Assembly: GCA_016839915.1 (NCBI GenBank)
Contig: JAEOTH010000218.1
Coordinates: 1-51,502, forward strand
Length of the DNA stretch: 51,502 nt
Reading direction: 5' to 3'
Source of the DNA: Promethearchaeota archaeon
GTDB lineage: Archaea > Asgardarchaeota > Lokiarchaeia > Sigyniarchaeales > SOKP01
The notes under the pieces are model-generated. The model had not been told where the DNA came from, ran no database searches, and was given only the letters and a program-made list of their open reading frames with translations. The position numbers were made by a program, and so were the translations under genes. Shown one piece after another: positions 10,258-43,536 of this stretch (position 1 is the stretch's first letter; each line of letters begins with the position of its first letter).

Positions 10258-10962
10258 ATGGGTGATTTTATGTTATTTTCCGAAAATGAAATGAATAATA
10301 TAAAAAGAGAAATGGCTAAACTAAAAGAAAAAGTTGTACTTAAACTATTTACTGATTTTAAAATTAAAGAAGATGGAACAAAAATAAGAAAGTGTATGGC
10401 TTGTGAGGGTACATATGAGTTATTAAAAATTTTAGCAGATCATTCTAATGGAAAGCTAGAAATTGAGGAAATATCTACTGAAGAAAATGAAGAAAAAGCA
10501 AAGAAATTCAATGTTAATAAAATACCCGCTATCCTATTTGTTGATGACAATGATAAAGAAATTATTCGATATTTAGCACACCCAATAGGATCCGAATTTG
10601 TACCCTTTCTCAATAGTATACAATATTTTTCAGGAGTGAGGCCTTATTACGCGGATCAAATTCTTACACACCTTAAAAAAATAAATAATGCAAAAATGAA
10701 AATTTTTATAACTCCAACCTGTCCTTACTGTCCAGCAACAGTGCCTGTCTTAACTCTCTTTGCAATTGTTTCCAAGGGAAAAATTACAGTTGAGGTAATT
10801 GATGTTAACATGAATCCTGATTTAGGAATGAAATACCAAGTACAAGGAGTACCCCATACTGTCGTCAATGAAAAAGACCATATATATGGAATGTTCACTC
10901 CCCAAGATTTATTGGATAAATTAACTAAAGGTCAGAGAGATTTTGGAGGAATGTATGCATAA
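10258..10962 (+). CDS. Protein disulfide oxidoreductase (PDO, tandem thioredoxin folds), paralogue 1
   Basis: A protein of about 234 residues built of two thioredoxin folds, like the glutaredoxin-like PDO of hyperthermophilic archaea. The N-terminal unit has C46-M-A-C49, the C-terminal unit C155-P-Y-C158 in TPTCPYCPATV. Both units carry cis-prolines (NKIPAIL, GVPHTV). PDOs oxidise, reduce or isomerise disulfides in the cytoplasm, with the C-terminal CPYC usually being the site reduced by thioredoxin reductase. It is the first of three tandem paralogues followed by a TrxR-like gene. The ATG at 10258 is followed by GGTGA and a second ATG at 10270, so translation may begin at the later Met. Confidence 0.9.
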   Translation: MGDFMLFSENEMNNIKREMAKLKEKVVLKLFTDFKIKEDGTKIRKCMACEGTYELLKILADHSNGKLEIEEISTEENEEKAKKFNVNKIPAILFVDDNDKEIIRYLAHPIGSEFVPFLNSIQYFSGVRPYYADQILTHLKKINNAKMKIFITPTCPYCPATVPVLTLFAIVSKGKITVEVIDVNMNPDLGMKYQVQGVPHTVVNEKDHIYGMFTPQDLLDKLTKGQRDFGGMYA

Positions 10963-10983
10963 TATAAATATGGTGATATAGAA

Positions 10984-11667
10984 GTGTCTCAAGATGCAAA
11001 ATATAGAGAAATAATAAAGAGAGAAATAGCTAAATTAAAGAAACCTGTTAAATTAAAGGTTTTTACATGTAAAGAAAAACCTACTTCGGGGAGTTTAATA
11101 AGAGAATGTATGGATTGTAATCAATTTATGGCATTATTGAGGATATATGAAGAAAATTCCAATGGGATGCTAACAATTGAGGAATTTTGTATTGATGAGA
11201 ACCCTGAAATTGCTAAAACGTATGATATTTCGAGAGTACCTACAATCCTATTTATCGATGAGATGGGAAGAGAAATTATACGATATTTAGCAGCCCCTCA
11301 AGGTGGCGAAATTCAACCATTTATCCAAGCTATATTTGCTTTTGCTGGAGCACCAAACTATTATGAAGCTACAATAAAACAAAATTTAGACAGGATTCAA
11401 CCTTCTACAATAAAGGTAATGATAACAGAAACTTGTCCTTATTGTCCACAGGTTTGTACAATTGTCAATAATTTCGCAATTGCATCCGAAGGTAAGATTA
11501 GAACAATTGTGATTGATATCGTTGCAAATCCGGATATTGGTCAATATTATGACGCAGCGGGTGTTCCTTACACTATAATAAATGATCAAAAAACCTTAGT
11601 TGGAATGGTTGGACCCAATGAAATACTAAGAGCTTTAATTGGAGGGAATATTCGCGTTCAATATTAA
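10984..11667 (+). CDS. Protein disulfide oxidoreductase (PDO), paralogue 2
   Basis: A 227-residue tandem thioredoxin-fold protein starting with GTG; the motif GGTGA at 10974-10978 lies seven bases before it, which supports this start. Redox sites are C42-M-D-C45 (IRECMDCNQF) and C151-P-Y-C154 (TETCPYCPQV). Extra cysteines at C29 and C69 and one just after the second site distinguish it from paralogue 1. The cis-Pro segments SRVPTIL and GVPYTI are present. It is closer in sequence to paralogue 3 than to paralogue 1 (shared RYLAAPQG and ANYYE-type segments). It lies 21 bases after paralogue 1 and is probably co-transcribed. Role: cytoplasmic disulfide exchange with the TrxR-like protein downstream. 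Confidence 0.9.
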   Translation: MSQDAKYREIIKREIAKLKKPVKLKVFTCKEKPTSGSLIRECMDCNQFMALLRIYEENSNGMLTIEEFCIDENPEIAKTYDISRVPTILFIDEMGREIIRYLAAPQGGEIQPFIQAIFAFAGAPNYYEATIKQNLDRIQPSTIKVMITETCPYCPQVCTIVNNFAIASEGKIRTIVIDIVANPDIGQYYDAAGVPYTIINDQKTLVGMVGPNEILRALIGGNIRVQY

Positions 11668-11751
11668 TACAAATTTAAGTATTTATGATTAAATCTAAAT
11701 AATTATACATAAGAGGAGAGGAAATTACCAGCATCATATATATTTAAAAAA

Positions 11752-12381
11752 ATGATACGTGAGGAGATGAAGAAACTTACAAAACCTGTTAAACTAACTG
11801 TGTTTGTAAATAAAAATAGGAATCCCCAAAATTACGAGTATACTATGTCAATACTAAAACTCTATGAAGAAAACTCTGAAGGAATGCTTAAATTTGAAGA
11901 ACTAGAAATAGGAAAGAACCCAGATTTAGAGAAAAAATACAAAATTGAACGAGCACCCACAATATTATTCATCGATAATGATGGAAATGAGCTAATTCGT
12001 TATTTAGCAGCTCCGCAGGGTAGCGAGGTCCAGCCTTTTATTCAAGCTTTATTAATATTGGCAGGAGCTTCGAATTATTATGAACTTACTGTTAAAGAGA
12101 ATCTTAATAAAATAGTTTCTTCAACAATTAAAGTGTTGATAACAAATTCATGCGCTTACTGTCCTCAGATGGTAAGTATAGCTTCTCAATTTGCGCTAGC
12201 ATCGGAAGGAAAAATTAGAGCTGTGATAATAGATATTATGGAAAATTCTGATATTGGAAAGCTATATGATACCTCCAGTGTTCCTTATACTATAATAAAC
12301 GAAAAAGAGCCTTTAGTTGGTTGTTATAGCCCTAATGAATTACTAAAAGCACTTTTTGAAGAGAATGAGGTACTTTTATAG
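11752..12381 (+). CDS. PDO paralogue 3 lacking the N-terminal CxxC
   Basis: A 209-residue tandem thioredoxin-fold protein of the same family. The C-terminal site is kept as C134-A-Y-C137 (TNSCAYCPQM), although the usual Pro is replaced by Ala. In the N-terminal unit the stretch aligned to ECMDCNQF of paralogue 2 reads NPQNYEYT, so both active-site cysteines are gone, while the cis-Pro (ERAPTIL) and the rest of the fold remain. It is therefore likely a single-site oxidoreductase or a subunit that pairs with paralogues 1 and 2. An 84-base gap containing GAGGAGAGG separates it from paralogue 2. The loss is an in-frame divergence, not a frameshift, so the gene looks functional. Confidence 0.85.
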   Translation: MIREEMKKLTKPVKLTVFVNKNRNPQNYEYTMSILKLYEENSEGMLKFEELEIGKNPDLEKKYKIERAPTILFIDNDGNELIRYLAAPQGSEVQPFIQALLILAGASNYYELTVKENLNKIVSSTIKVLITNSCAYCPQMVSIASQFALASEGKIRAVIIDIMENSDIGKLYDTSSVPYTIINEKEPLVGCYSPNELLKALFEENEVLL

Positions 12382-12415
12382 AATAAAATAAAAAAATAAA
12401 TAATGTGGCAAAAAA

Positions 12416-13360
12416 ATGTTTAATATTGATATAGAAGGTATTGATTTTGATAAGACCTATGATTTAATCGTATTAGGAGGCGGGCCAACAGCAATTGGAT
12501 GTGCAATATATGCCGCTCGATTTGCTATGGATGTGTTAGTAGTTGGTAAAACTTTTGGAGGTTTAATTGCGACTACTCATATTGTTGAGAATTATCCTGG
12601 AATCACATCAATAAGTGGCCAAGGGTTAATTGATATGTTCAGGGATCATATGAATTCTCTTAGCATCCCTTATATATCAGATGAAATACGGAGTATTGAG
12701 AAGGTTGATGATCACTTTGAACTTCGTTCTTTTTTTCAAAAATTTAAAGCCTATTCAGTTTGTATCTCAACTGGATCAGAAAGGAAGAAATTAGGCATTC
12801 CTGGGGAAGAGGAATTTGCTGGGAGAGGTGTATCATATTGTGCGACTTGTGATGGACCATTTTATAAGGATAAAAATGTTTGTGTAATTGGAGGAAGCGA
12901 TTCTGCTGCAAAAGAAGCATTATTTTTATCACAGAATACCAAAAAAGTATACATTATTTATAGAGGAGAAGAAATTAGAGCAGAGCCAATTAATAAAAAG
13001 CGTGTCCATGATAATGAAAAAATAGAAATAATCTACAATACTAATATAACTAAAATCAATGGGGATACTACAGTAAAATCTGTAGTTTTCGATAATGGAA
13101 AAGAATTTAAAATTGATGGAGTATTTATTGAAATCGGTTCAGTTCCTAATTCTGATTTAGCAAAACGTATTGGTGTTGAAATAAACGAAAAAGGTGAAAT
13201 TAAAATTAACCGTAAATCAGAAACGAATATTCCTGGAATCTTTGCTGCGGGAGATGTAGCTGATGCTCCTTTTAAACAAGCTATCACTGGAGTCTCTGAA
13301 GGAGTTATTGCCGCTTATTCTGCTTTTGATTACGTTAAGGAAATGAATATCGAGTATTAA
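12416..13360 (+). CDS. Thioredoxin reductase-like flavoprotein (partner of PDOs)
   Basis: A 314-residue low-molecular-weight thioredoxin reductase type protein. The FAD-binding motif is at residues 19-28 (VLGGGPTAIG), the redox pair is C142-A-T-C145, the pyridine-nucleotide Rossmann motif is VIGGSDSAAKEA at about 157, and the second FAD motif is GIFAAGDVADAPFKQ near the C terminus. It would transfer electrons from NAD(P)H through FAD to the disulfide of PDO. The usual NADPH-specific HRR motif is replaced by YRGEEIR, so coenzyme preference is uncertain and could be NADH. It follows PDO paralogue 3 by 34 bases and appears to be the reductase of the PDO set. Confidence 0.9.
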   Translation: MFNIDIEGIDFDKTYDLIVLGGGPTAIGCAIYAARFAMDVLVVGKTFGGLIATTHIVENYPGITSISGQGLIDMFRDHMNSLSIPYISDEIRSIEKVDDHFELRSFFQKFKAYSVCISTGSERKKLGIPGEEEFAGRGVSYCATCDGPFYKDKNVCVIGGSDSAAKEALFLSQNTKKVYIIYRGEEIRAEPINKKRVHDNEKIEIIYNTNITKINGDTTVKSVVFDNGKEFKIDGVFIEIGSVPNSDLAKRIGVEINEKGEIKINRKSETNIPGIFAAGDVADAPFKQAITGVSEGVIAAYSAFDYVKEMNIEY

Positions 13361-35622: not shown

Positions 35623-36777
35623 TCAGTACCTTGAAGGAGTCTTTGTTTTAATTGAGGGTGTTTTTGTTTTAATTGAGGGAGTTTTTGTTTTAATCTTTTT
35701 CAATTCTCTTTCAAATTGTCTTTTTTCATTTAAAAATCGTTGCTTATCCTTTTCCAACTTTTCTCTTTCACGTTTAATAATATTTTTTTCGTTCTCTAGG
35801 TTCGATTTATGTTTTTCTAATTGTCTATATTCACTATTAAGTCTTTTAAATTTCTCCTCTAAATTTGGAATTTTCCGGTTTAAGGAATGGAACTTACTTT
35901 CTGCTGCAGGAATTTTTCTTTCCAATTCTTTTAATCTAGCTTCTTGTTGTCGTCTTCTTTTTGCCAAATTATCAACATCTCGTTCCACTTTATCCCTGCT
36001 CTTTTTTAAATCTACTCTTTTCTTATCAATCTCACGAGTTTTTAGATCTAAATCCTGTTTTCTGTAACGAGTTTTTTCTCTTTCTTCTTTAAGTTTACTC
36101 TTTTCATCTGAAATTCGATTTTTTTCATCTGAAATCTCTCTCTTTAAGTTATGAATTTCCCTATTTAAGGTATCTCTTTCTTTAGTTAAATTTTTAATTT
36201 CATTTCTTAAATCCATTAATTTATTTTCTAAATCAGTAATAGTTCTTTCTAAAGCACTTTCTCTTCTCTCCATACCTGGAATTTTTGTTTTAATTTCCCT
36301 AACACGTTTTTCTGTTCTTTCTTTTTCCCATTCTAAATTCTTTTTTTGATTAGCAATATCCTCTCTTAATTTATCTAATTTTCCTTGAAATCTTTCTAAT
36401 TCAGCATTTTTTTGATCTAATTCCTTATTTTTTGTTCTAATTTTTTCTCTAAATTGCCGTTCTTTATTAATTAAGTCATTTTTTTGTTGTTCTATTTGAT
36501 TCTCCATTTTTCCTAACTCGCTACGTAGATTATCCCGTTGTTCAACAAGGTTTCTTATTTTAAATTCTTTATTTTTTCTTTTTCGTTCAAGATCCTCAAT
36601 ACTTTCTTTGTAATCCTCGATTTGATTAACAACCTTTTCCCATTCACTTTTTTCTTTATCTAGTTTTATTCTTTCCTTTTTTAATTTTTTAGCTAATCGT
36701 TTCTCCGAAATTGTATCTGGTTCTTCATCTGGAGTTTTTTCTCGAATTTGATATTTAGGAATTGGTTTCTCATCCAT
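35623..36777 (-). CDS. Long coiled-coil protein with KTKTPSI tail repeats
   Basis: A 384-residue, highly charged coiled-coil protein: almost the whole of residues 20-360 is a continuous heptad-like helix of Glu, Lys, Arg and Leu (for example LERTITDLENKLMDLRNE). No ATPase head, transmembrane helix or hinge is present, so it is not an SMC protein; it looks like a structural or tethering rod, as found in several Asgard loci. The N terminus has an EKTPDEEP segment, and the C terminus repeats TPSIKTK two to three times, ending KTPSRY. Those repeats correspond to a 21-base DNA tandem repeat. It lies beside the ubiquitin-like locus, divergent from the first ubiquitin-like gene (178 bases apart); a role there is suggested by position only. 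Confidence 0.75.
   Translation of the reverse strand: MDEKPIPKYQIREKTPDEEPDTISEKRLAKKLKKERIKLDKEKSEWEKVVNQIEDYKESIEDLERKRKNKEFKIRNLVEQRDNLRSELGKMENQIEQQKNDLINKERQFREKIRTKNKELDQKNAELERFQGKLDKLREDIANQKKNLEWEKERTEKRVREIKTKIPGMERRESALERTITDLENKLMDLRNEIKNLTKERDTLNREIHNLKREISDEKNRISDEKSKLKEEREKTRYRKQDLDLKTREIDKKRVDLKKSRDKVERDVDNLAKRRRQQEARLKELERKIPAAESKFHSLNRKIPNLEEKFKRLNSEYRQLEKHKSNLENEKNIIKREREKLEKDKQRFLNEKRQFERELKKIKTKTPSIKTKTPSIKTKTPSRY
35639..35701. repeat. 21-base tandem repeat (about three copies) encoding the TPSIKTK tail
   Basis: Three near-identical 21-base units, each containing GTTTTAATTGAGGG or its start, occupy 35639-35659, 35660-35680 and 35681-35701. On the minus strand they encode the heptapeptide repeat at the C terminus of the coiled-coil protein. 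The third unit diverges at its end. Copy number probably varies between strains. Confidence 0.8.
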
Positions 36778-36954: not shown

Positions 36955-37380
36955 ATGAGCTTTGATAATGAGTTTGATGACGAGTTTGATGAACAAGAAT
37001 TTGATGAAGATTTAGAAGATTTAGAGGAAGAATTTGAAGACGAAATGGATGGAGATATAGAAGAACCTTTTGAAAAGATTCCTGAGGAGGTACTTGAATC
37101 CAAAACTCCTACTACTAAGATTATTACAGGAGGAAAAAAGATTTCAATATATTTCATGTCTACTATTGGTCCGGGTGAGAAAAAGCAAAAGTTAACTGTT
37201 AATGATGGGAATCTTGTTGGTGATATTAAAGAAACCGTAGCAAATTTATTTGGTTTAGATCCTGCTGATTTTCACTTATCATCTGGTGGAATAACAATGG
37301 ATGAGATTAACCCTTTAAATGACTATAATGTTTCTGACGGAGAGGATATACTTTTAATTCCAGCAAGTATTGCTGGCTAA
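36955..37380 (+). CDS. Ubiquitin-like protein 1 with acidic N-terminal extension, ends in Ala-Gly
   Basis: A 141-residue protein. Residues 1-50 are strongly acidic (EFDDEFDEQEFDEDLEDLEE), residues about 51-60 form a SKTPTTK linker, and residues about 62-141 are a beta-grasp ubiquitin-like domain: ISIYFMSTIGPGEKK, helix GDIKETVANLFGLDP, and SSGGITMDEINPLNDYNV followed by LLIPASIAG. The protein ends exactly at Ala-Gly, with no Gly-Gly and no tail to be trimmed. The core of the fold and the terminal IPxxxxG resemble UFM1 as much as ubiquitin. It is the first gene of the E1-E2-JAMM locus, on the plus strand, and is about three quarters identical in its core to the paralogue at 39247. It would be activated by the E1 at 39659. 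Confidence 0.9.
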   Translation: MSFDNEFDDEFDEQEFDEDLEDLEEEFEDEMDGDIEEPFEKIPEEVLESKTPTTKIITGGKKISIYFMSTIGPGEKKQKLTVNDGNLVGDIKETVANLFGLDPADFHLSSGGITMDEINPLNDYNVSDGEDILLIPASIAG

Positions 37381-37415
37381 GTACTTCAAATTAAATTGAA
37401 TGTTTTTAATTTATC

Positions 37416-37427
37416 TTTTTTTTTTTT
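37416..37427 (+). terminator. T12 terminator after ubiquitin-like gene 1
   Basis: A run of twelve T residues begins 36 bases after the stop codon, a typical archaeal oligo-T termination signal. It lies at the convergent junction with the membrane-anchored ubiquitin-like gene on the minus strand. Confidence 0.55.
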
Positions 37428-38217
37428 AATCCCTTTCTTTTCTTGTAGGAATTAAAGCTATTTCATCATCATCATCAATTTCATAATCATTTATTAGAGA
37501 ATTCTCTTGTAATAATATACCTCCGGAGGATAATAGAAAATCCTCTAGTTCATAATCAAATAAAATTGCTACGGTTTCTTTAATTATACTTACTAATTCA
37601 TTTGTACCAACAATAATTATTTTCGTTTTCTCACCTGGCTCGACTAAAGATCTTACATATACACGAATCTGGTCTTCTATTTCAATAGGATCCATTGGTG
37701 GTGTATAAGTTATCTTATCTTCAGTTTTATTTCTGTTCTTTAACATATTTTCAATTAACTTTTTTCTCTCGTTTGGATTAAAATATAACATTTCTCTTAT
37801 AAATATTATCTTGTCCATTTTTGGTAATTCTAAGAGATCTATTTTATTTAGTTCTTCTTCACTAAACATTGAAAAGATGTATTTATCCATAATAGGCATA
37901 TCCTTATAGGACTCCTCTGATTCAATGTAATCTACTAGTGATGGTATGACATCAATATATTCTTCAATTATAGCAATTTTTGCCTCTTGAACCGATTTGA
38001 TTTTTGCAGGGTATTTTTTTTCTTTTATAGTTTTCTCTTGACTATTTTTTGACTGTACAAAATAAATAGTACTAGTGGATAATACAGCTACACTACCAAT
38101 AGTTAGGACGAGAAATAAAGATGCATTTTCAATGCGAAATAGGAAAAAAAAAACATAAAACAATATACAAACAGCATAAAGTGCGACAACACTAAAAATT
38201 CTATAATTCTTTTTCAT
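37426..38217 (-). CDS. Membrane-anchored ubiquitin-like domain protein without C-terminal glycine
   Basis: A 263-residue protein. Two hydrophobic helices lie at residues about 7-28 and 33-55, then a basic linker, a helical region (residues about 70-170) and a C-terminal ubiquitin-like domain at about 180-258. That domain shares the paralogues' pattern: IRVYVRSLVEPGEKTKIIIV, IIKETVAILFDYELEDFLLS, SGGILLQENSLINDYEI and DEIALIP. It ends in TRKERD, so no C-terminal glycine is available for conjugation. It is convergent with ubiquitin-like gene 1. By inference it is a built-in ubiquitin-like module at the membrane that could recruit E2, the JAMM protein or a ubiquitin-like-binding partner. No catalytic motif is visible. 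Confidence 0.85.
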   Translation of the reverse strand: MKKNYRIFSVVALYAVCILFYVFFFLFRIENASLFLVLTIGSVAVLSTSTIYFVQSKNSQEKTIKEKKYPAKIKSVQEAKIAIIEEYIDVIPSLVDYIESEESYKDMPIMDKYIFSMFSEEELNKIDLLELPKMDKIIFIREMLYFNPNERKKLIENMLKNRNKTEDKITYTPPMDPIEIEDQIRVYVRSLVEPGEKTKIIIVGTNELVSIIKETVAILFDYELEDFLLSSGGILLQENSLINDYEIDDDDEIALIPTRKERD

Positions 38218-38296
38218 GATTTTTTGATTAGATTATTTTCTAAATTTAAAATATATAATTTAAAATTTAAATGGGATTGGAATAAATTTGGAGTTT

Positions 38297-38974
38297 TTAA
38301 TTTTTTGCACCTTTTATTGAATTTCGAGCCTTAGAATATTTATCTAAATCTAATTTGAAAATATTTCTACTTTTTTCTTTTTCAATTATAATTAATTCCA
38401 GATCAGTTAGAATCTCTAAATATTTTTTAACAGTGCTATGATTTTTTTTTAAGCCAGATGCTATTTCTGTAATTTTAAATGGTTTATTTTTGTTTTTCAT
38501 AAAATTAATTATTTTTTGAACGATCTCTTTTTTCAAATAATAGTATAACGGATCAAGCTTTGGATTAGAATCAAATTTGAAGAAAATTTTATGATTGTTA
38601 ATTTGTTTTGATCTTACGAATCTGAATTTTTCTAGACAAGACAAATGCCATAATGCTTGATTACTACCAATATTTAGAGCTCTCATGATTTCATTAATAT
38701 TTGAGGGATTTTTTTTGATATAATTAAAGATCTCGTTTCTTTTTGGATGTTCAATAATATTATTTTTCATTAAGCGAGTCCCTGGAATAATTACATGTCT
38801 TTTTATTAAATCTTTTAAGATTAATTCTATTCTGTTCTCATTTATATTAGGATTGTATCTCACTCTATTACTTATATAGGAGATTATTTCTCTAATTGAG
38901 AAGAAGGTTTTCTTATTCAAATACTCTTCTAATAATTCAAGAACAATAGATTCTGCTTTATCCAGAGAACTCAT
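38297..38974 (-). CDS. Multi-winged-helix transcriptional regulator
   Basis: A 225-residue protein with two clear winged-helix units: residues about 70-130 (IFNYIKKNPSNINEIMRALN, then ALWHLSCLEKFRFV) and about 145-205 (KIINFMKNKNKPFKITEIA, then HSTVKKYLEILTDLELIIIE). A further helix-rich segment at residues 1-65 may be a third unit. Tandem winged helices are common in archaeal regulators of unknown ligand. It is divergent from ubiquitin-like gene 2 (272 bases between starts) and follows the membrane-anchored ubiquitin-like gene, so it may regulate the locus; this is inferred from position. Start at ATG near 38972-38974. Confidence 0.75.
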   Translation of the reverse strand: MSSLDKAESIVLELLEEYLNKKTFFSIREIISYISNRVRYNPNINENRIELILKDLIKRHVIIPGTRLMKNNIIEHPKRNEIFNYIKKNPSNINEIMRALNIGSNQALWHLSCLEKFRFVRSKQINNHKIFFKFDSNPKLDPLYYYLKKEIVQKIINFMKNKNKPFKITEIASGLKKNHSTVKKYLEILTDLELIIIEKEKSRNIFKLDLDKYSKARNSIKGAKN

Positions 38975-39162
38975 GAGCCCATACTTAATTTTCGTTGAAA
39001 TTTTTTGTTTTTATATTTATATCTTCTCTCTAAAACAATATTTATTGTCTTATAAATATTGATAGGCATTCATACAATATATAATATAATTTCTTTAAAA
39101 TCAGAATTTTCTCACTTTTGCTTTTGATTATAATTCAAAAACTTCAAAATCATGCCAAAGGG

Positions 39163-39172
39163 TTTTATAATA
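39163..39172 (+). promoter_or_regulatory. TATA-like box upstream of ubiquitin-like gene 2
   Basis: TTTTATAATA, preceded by AAAGGG as a possible BRE, lies about 75 bases before the ATG at 39247. With a start of transcription about 25 bases downstream this leaves a leader of some 50 bases. AT-rich background makes the call weak. Confidence 0.3.
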
Positions 39173-39246
39173 CCTTTTTAATGCCATTTTATTAAGTATA
39201 ACAAAATTACAGATTGTAAAATAAAAAAAAATTGGAAGTGATGTGA

Positions 39247-39579
39247 ATGAGTTTTGATGAATTTGATGAGGATTTAGGAGGAGAAGAACCAGTAAAATCT
39301 AAAACTCCTGCTGGTAAAACTCCTGCTGGAGGAAAGAAATTGACTTTATATTTCATGTCAACTATTGGACCTGGGGAAAAGAAAGAAAAATTAACTGTAA
39401 ATGACAGCAATCAAGTAAGTGATATTAAACAAACCTTAGGTAACTTGTATGGATTGGATCCCAATGATTTTCATTTATCTTCAGGTGGAGTTACAATGGA
39501 TGAAAATAGCAATTTAAGAGACTATGATGTAAATGATGGCGATGATATTCTTTTAATCCCAGCTAGTACAGCTGGGTAG
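39247..39579 (+). CDS. Ubiquitin-like protein 2, ends in Ala-Gly
   Basis: A 110-residue paralogue of ubiquitin-like protein 1 with a shorter acidic N terminus (MSFDEFDEDLGGEEP), a KSKTPAGKTPAGGKK linker and a beta-grasp domain (residues about 31-110): LTLYFMSTIGPGEKKEKL, DIKQTLGNLYGLDP, SSGGVTMDENSNLRDYDV, and LLIPASTAG at the end. The last residues are Ala-Gly, again with no trailing peptide. It is the closer ubiquitin-like gene to the E1 (79 bases). An AGTGATGTGA leader supports the ATG at 39247. The mature protein would be activated at its C-terminal glycine by the E1. The acidic N terminus could act in partner recognition and distinguishes it from eukaryotic ubiquitin. Confidence 0.92.
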   Translation: MSFDEFDEDLGGEEPVKSKTPAGKTPAGGKKLTLYFMSTIGPGEKKEKLTVNDSNQVSDIKQTLGNLYGLDPNDFHLSSGGVTMDENSNLRDYDVNDGDDILLIPASTAG

Positions 39580-39631
39580 ACTTATAAAACTTTCTTCATG
39601 AATTATAATATAAGGGCTTTAAGCTCTTTAA

Positions 39632-39650
39632 TTTTTTTTATTTTTTTTTT
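39632..39650 (+). terminator. T-rich terminator between ubiquitin-like gene 2 and E1
   Basis: A run of eight T, an A, and ten T follows a weak inverted element (AGGGCTTTAAGCTCT). It lies 52 bases after the ubiquitin-like stop and immediately before the E1 start. Partial termination here would give more ubiquitin-like than E1 transcript. Confidence 0.5.
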
Positions 39651-39658
39651 AAAAATAT

Positions 39659-40918
39659 ATGGTGATAATATTGGATAAGGATTCAGATTTTTTTGCAAAA
39701 GAATTATCAGCGGAAGAGAGAGGCTTGTATGACCGCCAATTTCGTTTGGAAGGTTGGTCTCAGAAATTAGTAAAGGCCTCAAGGGTGTTGATAGTTGGTG
39801 TTGGAGGTTTAGGTTGTGAAATTGCAAAAAATTTAGCCATGTTAGGTGTTGGTCATTTAGATCTTATTGATTTAGATATTATTGAACATTCTAATTTAAA
39901 CCGTCAAGTTCTTTTTACTGGAGCAAAGATTGGAGAACCTAAGGCAGTTGTGGCGGCGAGAAAGCTCAAAGAAATTAATCCCAATATTATAGTTAAGGGA
40001 TATCATACCTCTTTAGAGCGATTGAATCCTGTATTATATCAAGCTGCTGATGTTGTTGTTGGAGGACTTGATTCGATGAATGCTCGTCTAAATTTAAATG
40101 CACAATGTATAAGATTTAAAAAACCACTAGTAGATGGTGGAGTTTCCGGTTATCATGGTCATGTTTATACAATATTTCCCTACAAAAATGCTTGTTATGA
40201 ATGTAATCCATTACCAGTAGGTGAGAATGATGAGATGGCAGCCTGTACGGTAGTTGGAGTGCCCCGAAAAAGGATTCATTGCGTTTTTAAAGGAGATATG
40301 GCATTTAAAGAAAAGTTTGATCGTGATCCGAATCCAAAAGACATAAATGATATTAAATTCATTCAAAAGGTTACAAATGAGCTAGTAAATACACATGATT
40401 TCTTGCCTGAATATACGGAAGATGATATTGTAAAAATTATTGATAGGCATGATCCTGGCATAATAACTATAAATGCTGTTATTTCAGCTTTACAGTCACA
40501 TGAAACAATTAAAATACTTCATTGGAGAAAAGGTCATAAAGGATTAGGTGAGCCTATAAGAAATTATGTGATCTATAATGCAATTACAATGAGATTCTAT
40601 CATATCGAAAAACCAAGAAACCCAGAATGCTCTCAATGTAGTAAAAAAGTTCGCCGAGTATCAATAAAATTGAGAGCCCAATCACCTTGTCTAAACATAA
40701 TTAAAATATTAACGAAAAATGGATTTAAACTAGATCCAGATTCTGAGCCAATTTTGACTTTACTGGATTTTAATGATGTTAAGATAGTCGAATTAGAAAA
40801 GAATCCAATTGAAAATGAATTAAGAAATTACGAACTTATGACAGCTGCAGGGTTTAAAGATGGTGAAATTTTTGTAACCTTAAAATTAAAACAAGATTTA
40901 AATCAAAAAAGGTTTTAA
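39659..40918 (+). CDS. E1-like ubiquitin-activating enzyme (UBA3-like)
   Basis: A 419-residue E1. Residues about 20-300 are the ThiF/E1 adenylation fold: ATP loop GVGGLGCE (47-54), NLNRQ (79-83) and D138. A zinc site is formed by C179/C182 (ACYEC) and C324/C327 (CSQC). C196 in EMAACTVVGVPRK aligns with the catalytic Cys of UBA3/UBA1-type E1s (CTI..PR). TINAVISALQSHETIKIL is the conserved E1 dimer or core helix. Residues about 332-419 look like a ubiquitin-fold domain that recruits E2. It adenylates the C-terminal Gly of the ubiquitin-like protein and passes it to the E2. The ATG at 39659 is followed by GGTGA and a TTG five codons in, which may be the real start. Confidence 0.94.
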   Translation: MVIILDKDSDFFAKELSAEERGLYDRQFRLEGWSQKLVKASRVLIVGVGGLGCEIAKNLAMLGVGHLDLIDLDIIEHSNLNRQVLFTGAKIGEPKAVVAARKLKEINPNIIVKGYHTSLERLNPVLYQAADVVVGGLDSMNARLNLNAQCIRFKKPLVDGGVSGYHGHVYTIFPYKNACYECNPLPVGENDEMAACTVVGVPRKRIHCVFKGDMAFKEKFDRDPNPKDINDIKFIQKVTNELVNTHDFLPEYTEDDIVKIIDRHDPGIITINAVISALQSHETIKILHWRKGHKGLGEPIRNYVIYNAITMRFYHIEKPRNPECSQCSKKVRRVSIKLRAQSPCLNIIKILTKNGFKLDPDSEPILTLLDFNDVKIVELEKNPIENELRNYELMTAAGFKDGEIFVTLKLKQDLNQKRF

Positions 40919-40989
40919 CTTAAAATTATAAAAAAATATATAATAATATTTTCAATATAAAATTAAAGATAATAAAAAGGGTTGAGAAA

Positions 40990-41517
40990 ATGAGTATAAG
41001 AAGTAGTCGTATTTCCCGAGATTTTGCAGGATTAAAAAAAATGCTTAAAGAAGGTAGTATTGTTCAATTAAAACCATTTAATCCAAAAAGGAAAAGTATT
41101 GATCATCTAGCAATCTCATTTAAAGGACCTAAAGGTACTGTTTATGCAGGTGGTCTTTTTAGATTAGAAATGAAATTCCCTGGTCAATACCCTAAAAAAC
41201 CTCCTTTTGTAAGATTGCATACTCCTATTTGGCATCCAAATTTCTGGCCAAAACCATCAGAATATAAAGGACAGAGAAATATTTGTCTTGCTTTAGTAGA
41301 TCCCTCATTGGTTGGTAAAAAAGGTGGATGGAGTCCTTCAAAAACAGCAGTGACTGTCGTTCAAGCTATAATTGCTATGTTTAATACACGTGGTAAATAT
41401 GTAAATCCAACAGATGTTTTTAACAAAAAAGCCGCGATAGAAATGATGAAAAATCAAAAGTTTTTTGAGAAAAAAGTAAAGAACCTTGTTAAGAAGTATG
41501 CAAATAAAAAATGGTGA
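40990..41517 (+). CDS. E2-like ubiquitin-conjugating enzyme
   Basis: A 175-residue UBC-fold protein. The diagnostic HPN tripeptide is at residues 82-84 (IWHPNFW), and the catalytic cysteine is C99 in QRNICLALV, 15 residues after the Asn of HPN, as in eukaryotic E2 enzymes. GWSPSKT after it matches the WSP segment of E2s, and MKFPGQYPKKPPFVRL matches the conserved YPxxPP stretch. It would accept the ubiquitin-like protein from the E1 by a thioester and transfer it to lysines with a RING-type partner. A seven-residue insertion (PSLVGKK) lies after the catalytic cysteine. It is 71 bases after E1 and seven bases before the JAMM gene. Confidence 0.94.
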   Translation: MSIRSSRISRDFAGLKKMLKEGSIVQLKPFNPKRKSIDHLAISFKGPKGTVYAGGLFRLEMKFPGQYPKKPPFVRLHTPIWHPNFWPKPSEYKGQRNICLALVDPSLVGKKGGWSPSKTAVTVVQAIIAMFNTRGKYVNPTDVFNKKAAIEMMKNQKFFEKKVKNLVKKYANKKW

Positions 41518-41524
41518 TTTTTAC

Positions 41525-42337
41525 ATGGAAAATAATGATCTAGCTAATAATTCAATCAAAGATGTAATTAAGAGGAAAATAAAAGAAAAAATAAAACAAG
41601 AACTTTTAGATGAAATTTGCGAAGAACTTAAATTAGAGGAAGATGAATTAACTGAAGAAATTTCTTCAATGCTTACAAAAAAACCGTCTGCTAAACCAAT
41701 TATCAAACTTACTAAGATTCCTACAGCTAAAATCATAGAAAATAAAAAAGGTGAAACTCGAAAAGGGGAGGAACTCCAAAAAGAGATTTATATTTCAGTA
41801 AAAGCTATCCTTAAGATAGCGAGTCATGCACTTAAATATGCTAATTCTAAGATCCCAAGAGAAAAATGGGTGGAGGTTATAGGGCTTCTTGCAGGAAAAG
41901 TAGATAGAAATAACATAATTCACATTGAAGATTCTTATCCAATGGGACATGGTACAGCAGTTTATGCAGAAATTAAAGACTATAAAAATTATGTAAGAGC
42001 TTTTAAAGATATTAAAAGGCAGAGTTTTTTTATATGTGGATGGTATCATTCACATCCATCTTATGGATGCTTCATGTCGAATGAAGATATGGGGACCCAA
42101 GCGAGATATCAAAAACTCTGGGATAAAGCCGTTGCTCTTGTTATCGATCCCTATCAAATTGATGGTAAATCTACGGGATTTGAAATATACAAGGCAAATA
42201 TTAAATCAAATACATGGTATCCTTTGATATATGGCATTAAAGGATCATTAGATGTAAAAATGCTCCCCGAAGTATTAAAATTTATAAATCCTATAACTGA
42301 AGGGAAAGCTATATATCTCGAATATGATGAAGATTAA
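41525..42337 (+). CDS. Rpn11-like JAMM deubiquitinase
   Basis: A protein of about 270 residues starting at the ATG at 41525, preceded by GGTGA that overlaps the E2 stop; an earlier Met at 41486 would overlap E2. The MPN+/JAMM zinc site is complete: E117 (VEVIGLLAGK), then H175-S-H177-P (GWYHSHPSYGCFMSNED) with S185 and D188. This block is very close to that of Rpn11/CSN5. The N-terminal 60 residues are an acidic helical extension (EICEELKLEEDELTEEIS) and a linker with IPTAK. It would cut the isopeptide bond after the conjugated ubiquitin-like glycine. Because the ubiquitin-like proteins end exactly at Gly, precursor processing is not needed, so removal from targets is the probable role. Confidence 0.94.
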   Translation: MENNDLANNSIKDVIKRKIKEKIKQELLDEICEELKLEEDELTEEISSMLTKKPSAKPIIKLTKIPTAKIIENKKGETRKGEELQKEIYISVKAILKIASHALKYANSKIPREKWVEVIGLLAGKVDRNNIIHIEDSYPMGHGTAVYAEIKDYKNYVRAFKDIKRQSFFICGWYHSHPSYGCFMSNEDMGTQARYQKLWDKAVALVIDPYQIDGKSTGFEIYKANIKSNTWYPLIYGIKGSLDVKMLPEVLKFINPITEGKAIYLEYDED

Positions 42338-42363
42338 AAGAGGAGTGTGGTGATTACTAAACT

Positions 42364-43536
42364 ATGGCCAAAGTTAAATCTGTTGCATTTACATTGGTGC
42401 CTTTTTCCTTAATAGGTATAATACATGGTGCTATCATAAATTCCTTTAATATATTTGTCAGCTGGCTATTGATAGGAATCTGGTTAATTTTTTCTTTCAA
42501 AGTATTAAAAAATATTAAAAAATATCGAGAATATCGAAGTCCTCACAATACTGCATTCTTTACAGTTGGTCCTGTTTTTATTGGAATTTTTTATTCAATT
42601 TGGGGAAATTTTACAGATTTATTAGGAGAAGATCTTCTAGGAAGTTCAGATTTATATTTAAGTTTATGGAGTATTCTCTTTGGGTTACCTTATGTAATAT
42701 ATGGTTCATTTTCTTTATATCGATGTTTTAAAAAATATAGAGTAATTTATTTTGGAACGAAATCAGTAAATGCACGCAAATTTGGTTATATTTTAGGTAT
42801 CTCAATTCTTTTTTTCATAATAATTTATTGGGCAAGTTTTTATTCACTTGCAGAAACCTATGGATCTTTATTATTAATTGATCTTAATCTTTTAATATTA
42901 CTTATTGGTACTATACTAATATTGATTATTCCAGGCTTATTCGGATCTCGATCACAATTACCCCAATTGACAAGAGATTATATCACAAGACGTACAAGAA
43001 GATTAAGCGATTTAACTTCACCTAATAGGCATAGAGAAAGTATTCGTACTACAACAAGGTCATCTCCAACACAGTCAAACAGATCTATTACTCGTACTTC
43101 GAGATCAGTTCCTAATTCTTCAAGATCAACACCAAGAGGTCAAGGACAATCTAGGAGTTCTAGAGTTAAGACAACCACTCGAACTACAAGTACAAATAAA
43201 ACAGGAAAGCCAATAAGAAGGAGTCAAAGTACTATAAAGCAAGTAAATTACAAATTATACAGGCCAAAGGCTGGAAATTTGTCATTAGATGATTTTAAAT
43301 GCATTTTTTGTTTTAAATTGCCAGAATTTCCCAAAGATAATGGTAGAGGAATAATTATATGTCCAAATTGTAGATACCCTGCTCACGCAGATGAATTTAA
43401 GGATTGGCTTAGAACTTCTGGTATTTGTTCTCGATGCAATGCTACTATTCCGTTAATTTATAGGAGAAATCCTAAAATTATAAGTGTAAAAAATTATACA
43501 AAAATCTATAAGAGTATTCTAAATAAAAGACAATAA
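42364..43536 (+). CDS. Membrane protein with C-terminal RING-like zinc domain (candidate E3)
   Basis: A 390-residue protein. Residues 1-205 contain four to five membrane helices. Residues about 206-305 are a Ser/Thr/Arg-rich, probably disordered linker. Residues about 312-360 form a zinc domain: C313-x2-C316-x16-C333-x2-C336-x4-H341-x13-C355-x2-C358, seven of the eight ligands expected of a RING, the remaining one not obvious. In the Caldiarchaeum ubiquitin operon a small RING-finger protein accompanies E1, E2 and Rpn11; this protein occupies the same place, 26 bases after the JAMM gene, but is membrane-bound. It is a candidate E3 or E2-docking factor. RING versus another treble-clef fold cannot be settled from sequence alone. 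Confidence 0.8.
   Translation: MAKVKSVAFTLVPFSLIGIIHGAIINSFNIFVSWLLIGIWLIFSFKVLKNIKKYREYRSPHNTAFFTVGPVFIGIFYSIWGNFTDLLGEDLLGSSDLYLSLWSILFGLPYVIYGSFSLYRCFKKYRVIYFGTKSVNARKFGYILGISILFFIIIYWASFYSLAETYGSLLLIDLNLLILLIGTILILIIPGLFGSRSQLPQLTRDYITRRTRRLSDLTSPNRHRESIRTTTRSSPTQSNRSITRTSRSVPNSSRSTPRGQGQSRSSRVKTTTRTTSTNKTGKPIRRSQSTIKQVNYKLYRPKAGNLSLDDFKCIFCFKLPEFPKDNGRGIIICPNCRYPAHADEFKDWLRTSGICSRCNATIPLIYRRNPKIISVKNYTKIYKSILNKRQ

Follow-up and report, generated by a model that had tools for sequence, protein, structure and literature searches.

A ubiquitin-like conjugation locus with two predicted membrane proteins in an archaeon of the Lokiarchaeia

Eight open reading frames (ORFs) at positions 36955-43536 of the 51.5-kb contig JAEOTH010000218.1 (assembly GCA_016839915.1, Promethearchaeota archaeon; Lokiarchaeia; Sigyniarchaeales; SOKP01) encode a ubiquitin-like modifier (Ub1), a membrane protein with a ubiquitin fold (mUbl), a winged-helix protein (wHTH), a second modifier (Ub2), an activating enzyme (E1), a conjugating enzyme (E2), a JAMM isopeptidase and a membrane protein with a RING-like zinc domain (mRING), in this order. 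The window, that is the whole stretch of DNA analysed, covers 51,502 nucleotides. Gene identities, catalytic motifs, protein architectures, conserved linkage and the contrast between the tails of the modifiers and that of mUbl are read from the sequence itself. On these grounds the locus almost certainly performs ubiquitin-like conjugation, and we favour, with moderate confidence, a cascade directed to the membrane in which mUbl would be a non-conjugated tether or regulator. The assembly measures 3.65 Mb, with a completeness of 93.9% and a contamination of 6.9%; the closest loci of named genomes, among the best 80 of 91 relatives, belong to Candidatus Lokiarchaeia or Lokiarchaeota records.

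The core cascade and its conservation

A preliminary description made from the letters alone had proposed a ubiquitin-like conjugation locus. Its eight ORFs were all recovered at the same positions with agreeing translations, and the proposal is borne out by gene content, Pfam families and catalytic motifs, including each motif that it had named (HPN and C99 in E2, H-S-H-P...S-x2-D in JAMM, the nucleotide loop and C196 in E1). E1 (39659..40918, plus strand; 419 amino acids, aa) matches Pfam ThiF at 2.6e-61; its probable catalytic C196 sits in C-T-x4-P-x4-H-C, and further cysteine pairs occur at C179/C182 and C324/C327. Both the nucleotide loop, G.GG.G, and the C196 motif are present in all 62 named relatives of at least 380 aa. 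E2 (40990..41517, plus strand; 175 aa; Pfam UQ_con 2.4e-24) carries HPN at residues 82-84, the HPN..C motif being retained in 64/64 named relatives of at least 170 aa, and its best match in the PDB is the putative ubiquitin-conjugating enzyme 2onu (3.2e-14). The JAMM isopeptidase (41525..42337, plus strand; Pfam JAB 1.1e-17) is of the Rpn11 type and has 270 aa when read from the ATG at 41525, a more likely start than the listed TTG at 41486. Its motif, starting at H175 and completed by E117, was found in 70 of 70 named relatives of at least 230 aa; its closest PDB entries are RPN11 (6.3e-17) and the N11-like protein 6fjv (2.7e-15). The PDB relatives of E1 are led by the SUMO E1 UBA2 (4e-39) and the NEDD8 E1 UBA3 (6.4e-37, residues 35-362). 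A bacterial-type defence system was rejected, the best PDB relatives of E1 being eukaryotic SUMO, NEDD8 and ubiquitin E1s; the anti-phage cap2_3 model of NCBIfam reaches E1 at 44 bits, far under its cut-off of 320, PADLOC not having been searched. None of the eight locus proteins has an NCBIfam match above cut-off.

Ub1 (36955..37380, plus strand; 141 aa) has an acidic N-terminal extension and ends in I-P-A-S-I-A-G, and Ub2 (39247..39579, plus strand; 110 aa) ends in I-P-A-S-T-A-G; the Pfam ubiquitin family matches the former below its cut-off (1.8e-4) and the latter above it (2.7e-7). Thus both finish in S-x-A-G and neither in diglycine, a point absent from the preliminary description. In the named loci, P-x-S-x-A-G lies within eight residues of the end in 100 of 104 ubiquitin-like ORFs, 57 of these terminating right at A-G and 43 carrying one to six further residues; the other four comprise two S-R-V-A-G, one S-R-V-A-E and one ORF cut by a contig end. 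A diglycine within the same distance was seen once in 104, as S-T-A-G-G. The conserved S-x-A-G tail points to modifiers that can do without diglycine, and single-glycine C-termini have precedent in UFM1, ATG8 and ATG12. For the tailed modifiers, trimming by JAMM would be the natural guess, by analogy with the demonstrated JAMM-type trimming of Caldiarchaeum pro-ubiquitin (PMC5654768; this and the other papers cited were covered in part).

The conservation of the locus was assessed in two sets of loci that partly share genomes and hence are not independent. The first contains 40 stretches around E1 homologues, of which the closer 37 (L033-L069) have an E1 identity of at least 54%. E1, E2 and JAMM matches occur in all 37 and, by hand count, an mRING match within the stretch in 34; of the three stretches without one, two stop at a contig end (L034, L038), and in L058 mRING lies further along the contig. 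No mRING match was found in the three loci with a distant E1 (L070-L072, identity 40-44%), one of which holds E1, E2 and JAMM alone (L070) and the other two E1 alone. A second E1 copy (L074, 54%) in one of these same genomes stands without any other locus gene, mRING included. The second set, obtained by scanning named genomes with the mRING alignment and keeping the best 80 of 91 relatives, is biased since mRING served as bait. In these 80 loci, mRING has at least 300 aa in 73 and then follows JAMM within 300 bp in 71; the contiguous order Ubl-E1-E2-JAMM-mRING occurs in 56, and the full set of eight genes in the order seen here in 22. They span records titled Lokiarchaeota or Lokiarchaeia, Helarchaeota, Sifarchaeum, Sigynarchaeota, Prometheoarchaeum, Borrarchaeum, Hodarchaeota and Heimdallarchaeota. 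The association of these genes in related loci is not due to chance.

Several ubiquitin-like ORFs were met outside this arrangement. The genome of the present locus holds, on contig 163, a third modifier copy of 110 aa (L169:1558-1890), with no other locus gene in the 8 kb read, and lone copies resembling it occur in L170, L171 and L172. In four records (L156-L158 and L160; Hodarchaeota, Hodarchaeum and Heimdallarchaeota), tandem ubiquitin-like genes of 115-117 and 145-158 aa precede E1 and all finish in S-T-A-G, bare or with a short tail. Larger proteins also carry the domain at their C-terminus. Those of 565-583 aa (L139:10461-12191, L141:3403-5154, L143:2542-4239; two Sigynarchaea and one Lokiarchaeota record) end in S-T-A-G plus a short tail, may be conjugatable fusions and have a VWA-like domain, called on L139 only with Pfam just below cut-off. 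Two Borrarchaeum records hold, near the ubiquitin locus, a HerA-like ATPase (L147:1309-3117, L148:2658-4400; Pfam assignment made on L147 only) whose C-terminal ubiquitin-like domain ends in A-G. Finally, proteins of 260-296 aa with an N-terminal cysteine pair lie 0.9-2.3 kb downstream of mRING in five loci (L124:6432-7271, L125:11763-12653, L126:10266-11048, L127:11047-11829, L128:12436-13218), two ending in S-T-A-G plus two residues, two in S-R-V-A-G and one in V-A-E.

The two membrane proteins

The last gene of the locus, mRING (42364..43536, plus strand), encodes a membrane protein of 390 aa with a C-terminal RING-like domain. It was modelled with AlphaFold from an alignment of 50 rows, namely this protein and 49 of 73 mRING ORFs longer than 250 aa; not included were the partial L132, L151 with its masked stretch and a further 22, most of them close relatives. 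The model (mean predicted local distance difference test, pLDDT, 78.9; predicted TM-score 0.58) contains helices fitting transmembrane (TM) segments at residues 2-25, 28-56, 64-80, 101-123, 137-166 and 174-192, hence six predicted TM helices over residues 2-192 (42367..42939, plus strand), of which hydropathy alone gives four. Residues 222-292 form a disordered linker, followed with good local confidence by a zinc-finger-like domain at residues 305-360 (43276..43443, plus strand; C-I-x-C...C-P-x-C-x4-H-x2-E...W...C-x-R-C). Averaged over the 50 proteins, the charge is positive at the N-terminus (+1.8), in loops 2 (+2.0) and 4 (+5.0) and after helix 6 (+3.7), barely negative in loop 1 (-0.3) and negative in loops 3 (-1.9) and 5 (-1.6). 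Because these charges follow the positive-inside rule, both termini of the TM part, and with them the RING-like domain, are predicted to be cytosolic.

The nature of the zinc domain is best seen by comparison with five small proteins of distant genomes (L079, L080, L083, L087, L088; 75-87 aa), encoded near E1 and E2 genes and resembling srfp, the small RING protein of Caldiarchaeum. Against their profile, the mRING domain reaches an hhalign probability of 98.4 (E 1e-14), four column-shuffled controls remaining at or below 1%; L088 and L080 themselves exceed the Pfam cut-off for zf-RING_2. Zinc-domain alignments were built from 16 and 13 chosen domains, and the zinc profile supplemented with the five srfp-like proteins finds the ligases RNF24 (8.7e-8), EL5, RNF38 and Arkadia in the PDB and, lower, HRD1 (1.3e-4) and AMFR (1.1e-3). 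Seven of the eight cross-brace zinc ligands are conserved in mRING, ligand 6 being changed, R357 within the last cysteine pair is invariant, and so are I314 and W348 (50/50). By their place in the motif, to which the Caldiarchaeum protein was not aligned, these two would occupy the Ile and Trp positions by which RING domains contact E2 and thus correspond to srfp I30 and W58. In Caldiarchaeum, srfp is a demonstrated ubiquitin ligase (E3), whose reaction was lost with I30Q and impaired with W58A or R69A (PMC5654768). Since the zinc domain is homologous to these small soluble proteins, the E3 appears to have moved onto the membrane, and we hold it likely, from sequence, that mRING is the E3 of this cascade.

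The idea that mRING is unique to this locus was rejected. Its profile matches 139 of 227 genomes of the phylum and, among the matches listed, it is near full length (at least 330 of 390 positions, counted by hand) in at least 92 genomes from nine families; the other matches listed are partial, and many span the zinc domain only.

The second membrane protein, mUbl (37426..38217, minus strand), has two N-terminal hydrophobic segments, followed by a conserved helical region and, at the C-terminus, a ubiquitin fold; it ends in I-P-T-R-K-E-R-D. Residues 3-46 (38080..38211, minus strand) are predicted to form a TM hairpin from hydropathy and from AlphaFold helices 3-26 and 32-46, with low model confidence past residue 40; among 15 copies tested, 12 have two hydrophobic segments and three have one. 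The model is of moderate confidence (mean pLDDT 65.8), with values of 79-91 in the ubiquitin-like domain, assigned to residues 183-257 (37447..37671, minus strand) from Pfam, AlphaFold, Foldseek and alignment to the modifiers. Its best Foldseek match is Caldiarchaeum ubiquitin (6fno_D, E 1e-5, TMt 0.82). The Pfam ubiquitin family matches this copy below cut-off (6e-4) and, at 0.01 or better, 24 of the 28 members of an alignment that joins it to all 27 mUbl ORFs of the named loci. mUbl and the modifiers have conserved positions in common within the fold proper, namely G-E-K, D-x-F, L-S, G, Y and I-P. None of the 27 relatives has AG or GG within eight residues of its end, and mUbl cannot be attached because this conjugatable tail has been lost; the idea that it is a conjugated modifier was accordingly rejected.

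mUbl was counted by hand in 40 of the 227 genomes, in 39 at full length and in G036 cut by a contig end, and is confined to one family, where it occurs in 17/19, 18/24, 3/5 and 2/3 genomes of four genera. In this set of 40, found with mUbl itself as query, wHTH adjoins it in 39, some as fragments, the miss being a contig end. At least one modifier gene lies in the same stretch in 39 and at the Ub1 side in 35; 32 of the stretches hold E1 or a piece of E1, and 28 hold a RING gene. Here, wHTH (38297..38974, minus strand) has two winged-helix domains (Pfam HTH_5 8.4e-11, HrcA_DNA-bdg 8.5e-7) and is separated from the divergent Ub2 by an intergenic region (38975..39246) that the gene layout alone marks as probably regulatory; wHTH probably regulates the divergent promoters.

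A second type of locus was found in genomes G030, G035 and G140, where mUbl and wHTH, divergent from a modifier and a RING gene of 222-229 aa, lie in a stretch with no E1 or E2 match. The RING protein of the corresponding named loci (L155:6376-9318, L153:6504-9483 and L152:5182-8128) has no TM segment, leaving mUbl as the sole membrane member; L154:1-1813 has the same layout, with mUbl past the contig end. A RING without TM segment beside mUbl matches what a tethering role would predict. The records of this second type share isolate names with the main-cascade loci L124-L127.

The two membrane genes noticed in the preliminary description are both real, with predicted TM segments and conserved relatives. 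It had named the lack of their homologues in related loci as a refuting outcome, and this was not the case: 34 of the closer 37 loci have an mRING match, mRING also occurs in the wider phylum, and mUbl is found in its 40 genomes. Two points are corrected. mRING is widespread in Asgard archaea and not peculiar to this locus, mUbl being confined to one family; and the suggestion that both appear new holds within the scope of the literature covered, where neither turned up.

Proposed mechanism and alternative readings

In the cascade that we propose, E1 would adenylate Ub1 or Ub2 at its C-terminal glycine, no trimming being necessary here with their A-G ends, and the modifier would be handed via C196 of E1 to C99 of E2. 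The cytosolic RING-like domain of mRING would then capture the charged E2 and promote tagging of membrane or membrane-bound proteins, the substrates being membrane proteins with fair probability. The Rpn11-type JAMM would take the tag off and, in relatives, cut the one to six residues beyond A-G. mUbl, the body of a modifier on a membrane hairpin and under the control of the co-encoded winged-helix protein, would most likely dock or restrain E2 (or E1 or JAMM) at the membrane, as plant MUB does. A role as non-conjugated cofactor or regulator has slightly better than even chances; the choice of E2 as its partner is tentative. Tagged proteins could pass to ESCRT or to the proteasome: the genome has two ESCRT-III matches, one sharing a contig with an AAA ATPase, as well as five proteasome matches, of which two are short. 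A search for the UEV family gave no match, with the control silent as well.

Each transfer step, the E3 activity, the substrates and the mUbl partner are inferred from sequence, and several observations weigh against the proposal. By hand count, 55 of the 92 listed genomes with a near-full-length mRING show no full-length mUbl, so that the core cascade can do without mUbl. This dispensability fits another role, in which mUbl would be a membrane dock for proteasome, Cdc48 or ESCRT factors and no partner of the conjugation enzymes, much as the ubiquitin-like domains of HERP or TMUB1 act in endoplasmic reticulum-associated degradation. Non-conjugated ubiquitin-like domains often recruit downstream readers, and the genome has genes for the proteasome and an AAA ATPase. 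We nevertheless consider this role rather unlikely, as mUbl keeps company with modifier and wHTH genes, in one type of locus with modifier and RING only, in neighbourhoods where proteasome and ESCRT genes were not searched for.

The RING assignment of mRING rests largely on the link to srfp, because the profile of mRING domains by themselves matches RING ligases weakly. In the PDB, that profile finds best the C-terminal zinc finger of IFT144/WDR19 (4e-4); RNF24 is the best RING E3 (0.0034), none falling below 0.001, and HRD1 and AMFR appear at E 3.6 and 3.4. No RING E3 was found at E of 1 or less with the full-length profile. Pfam gave no family match for the full protein of this contig and, for its zinc domain alone, a best E of 0.034 to a non-RING family and 0.64 to zf-RING_2; the RING-like family zf-RING_16 was matched at 0.01 or better by just 7 of 50 mRINGs. 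Foldseek found no match at E of 0.001 or less; RING and U-box domains are among the weak best, where GATOR2 chains also occur. At zinc ligand 6, mRING has E (L131 has A) where four of the five srfp-like proteins have H, and the last cysteine is followed by N, S, D, G or A in place of the R69 required in Caldiarchaeum srfp (PMC5654768). The invariant I314 and W348 together with this non-basic third position are evidence for E2 binding and against the standard linchpin mechanism.

These features would suit a membrane protein that acts as adaptor or receptor and whose zinc domain is structural, conjugation then being left to E1 and E2 alone or to another RING protein, and the genome does encode another RING-like protein (546 aa, contig 117). 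We judge this improbable: mRING immediately follows JAMM in 71 of the 80 named loci, its zinc domain is homologous to the family of a demonstrated E3, and the Ile and Trp that would contact E2 are invariant.

The half of the locus formed by Ub1, mUbl and wHTH could also be a decaying accessory duplicate with no specific role. mUbl occurs in just 40 of 227 genomes. In the single-contig genome G004, the block Ub1-mUbl-wHTH-Ub2 ends in a 136-aa piece of E1, some 100 kb away from the intact cascade, and in G009 mUbl stands with only a 77-aa piece of wHTH, with no ubiquitin-like, E1 or RING match found in 12 kb. Decay is nonetheless quite improbable: identity to the mUbl of this contig is 43-72% in 26 of the 27 relatives (35% in one), the tail is lost in all 27, and the linkage to wHTH and modifier genes is maintained across four genera.

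Last, that Ub1 and Ub2 are sulphur carriers of the ThiS/MoaD kind, as the ThiF superfamily membership of E1 and its NCBIfam ranking (MoeB first at 151 bits against a cut-off of 266, Ube1 fifth at 117 bits against 750, both below cut-off) might suggest, is extremely improbable and was rejected, since the locus also encodes E2, JAMM and a RING-like protein and since SUMO, NEDD8 and ubiquitin E1s rank above MoeB (2.6e-33) and ThiF among the PDB relatives of E1.

Some further observations were made. The 546-aa protein of contig 117 (L176:172-1812) combines UBC/RWD-like domains with a C-terminal RING-like cysteine cluster, recognised by eye, and may be another E3 or a ubiquitin receptor. Contig 53 of the same genome carries a second E2 with HPN and Cys (L175/L073), in a frame that holds a stop; its relatives in L081 and L084, of 171-172 aa, lie near an E1-like protein of about 530 aa and represent a second conjugation system. 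A long coiled-coil protein (35623-36777) adjoins the present locus, and an ORF that is similar by eye lies on the same side of the G004 block (L173:5851-7008), near which there is also an ORF that looks actin-like by eye (L173:11351-12472). Elsewhere in the window (10258-13360), inspection by eye shows a thioredoxin-reductase-like ORF after a tandem of three thioredoxin/glutaredoxin-like ORFs, the last of which seems to have lost a cysteine pair.

Relation to known systems

The archaeal cascade itself was already known in Caldiarchaeum subterraneum, whose operon unites ubiquitin, E1, E2, srfp and Rpn11 (PMC5654768). The present locus has the same five functions, with canonical E1, E2 and JAMM motifs and an mRING zinc domain homologous to srfp-like proteins. 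It differs in that six predicted TM helices are joined to the RING, which in Caldiarchaeum is a small soluble protein, in that the modifiers end in A-G and not in diglycine, and in the addition of a membrane ubiquitin-like protein, a second modifier and wHTH.

Asgard ubiquitin clusters are known as well. The InterPro number IPR018611, which we take to be UFL1, would not find mRING. It is the one number forming the E3 entry of the published catalogue of these clusters, in which ubiquitin genes of Loki cluster apart from ESCRT genes and in whose covered parts neither a membrane RING nor a membrane ubiquitin-like protein is named (Hatano 2022, PMC9192718). The two were likewise not found in the covered parts of PMC5654768, PMC10936438, PMC6043591 and PMC11354881, nor among the titles and abstracts of the literature matches listed, a scope without supplements, bioRxiv and most subscription journals. 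Within that scope, this suggests that the two membrane genes are the new part.

Their interest lies in the site of tagging. The link between ubiquitin and ESCRT in Asgard archaea is known from binding studies, Asgard UEV proteins having been found to bind ubiquitin (PMC9192718), and mRING bears on what is tagged, and where. A membrane RING-like protein beside JAMM, in at least nine families among the matches listed, predicts the membrane as that site, and the tagging of membrane proteins may thus predate eukaryotic cells. More tentatively, one may imagine that over a wide range of Asgard archaea the ligase of the operon is a multi-TM protein, so that pre-eukaryotic ubiquitylation largely marked membrane proteins for ESCRT or the proteasome, and that Lokiarchaeia added a tail-less membrane ubiquitin, a counterpart of MUB/UBL3, to tether or restrain E2, able to replace the anchor missing from a soluble RING.

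HRD1 and gp78/AMFR consist of an N-terminal multi-TM domain, a linker and a C-terminal cytosolic RING. mRING shows this same order, and both ligases are matched by the srfp-supplemented profile; unlike them, its TM domain gave no sequence or fold link to theirs, as PDB profile, Pfam and Foldseek searches for its relatives returned only weak, single-member or low-complexity matches. The prenylation signal of MUB/UBL3 is a C-terminal CaaX; no cysteine was found near the end of any of the 27 mUbl C-termini, which thus lack it. Like MUB and UBL3, mUbl is a ubiquitin fold held at the membrane without a conjugatable Gly-Gly end, with an N-terminal TM hairpin as its anchor in place of prenylation. 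MUB anchors E2 at the plasma membrane, with an inhibitory effect on E2 charging (PMC4996978), and the effect of UBL3 on MARCH1 substrates needs its plasma-membrane anchor (PMC9001657). By analogy, MUB would be the closest biochemical precedent for the role of mUbl. On these comparisons, HRD1-type ligases have a pre-eukaryotic parallel in mRING, and MUB/UBL3 in mUbl.

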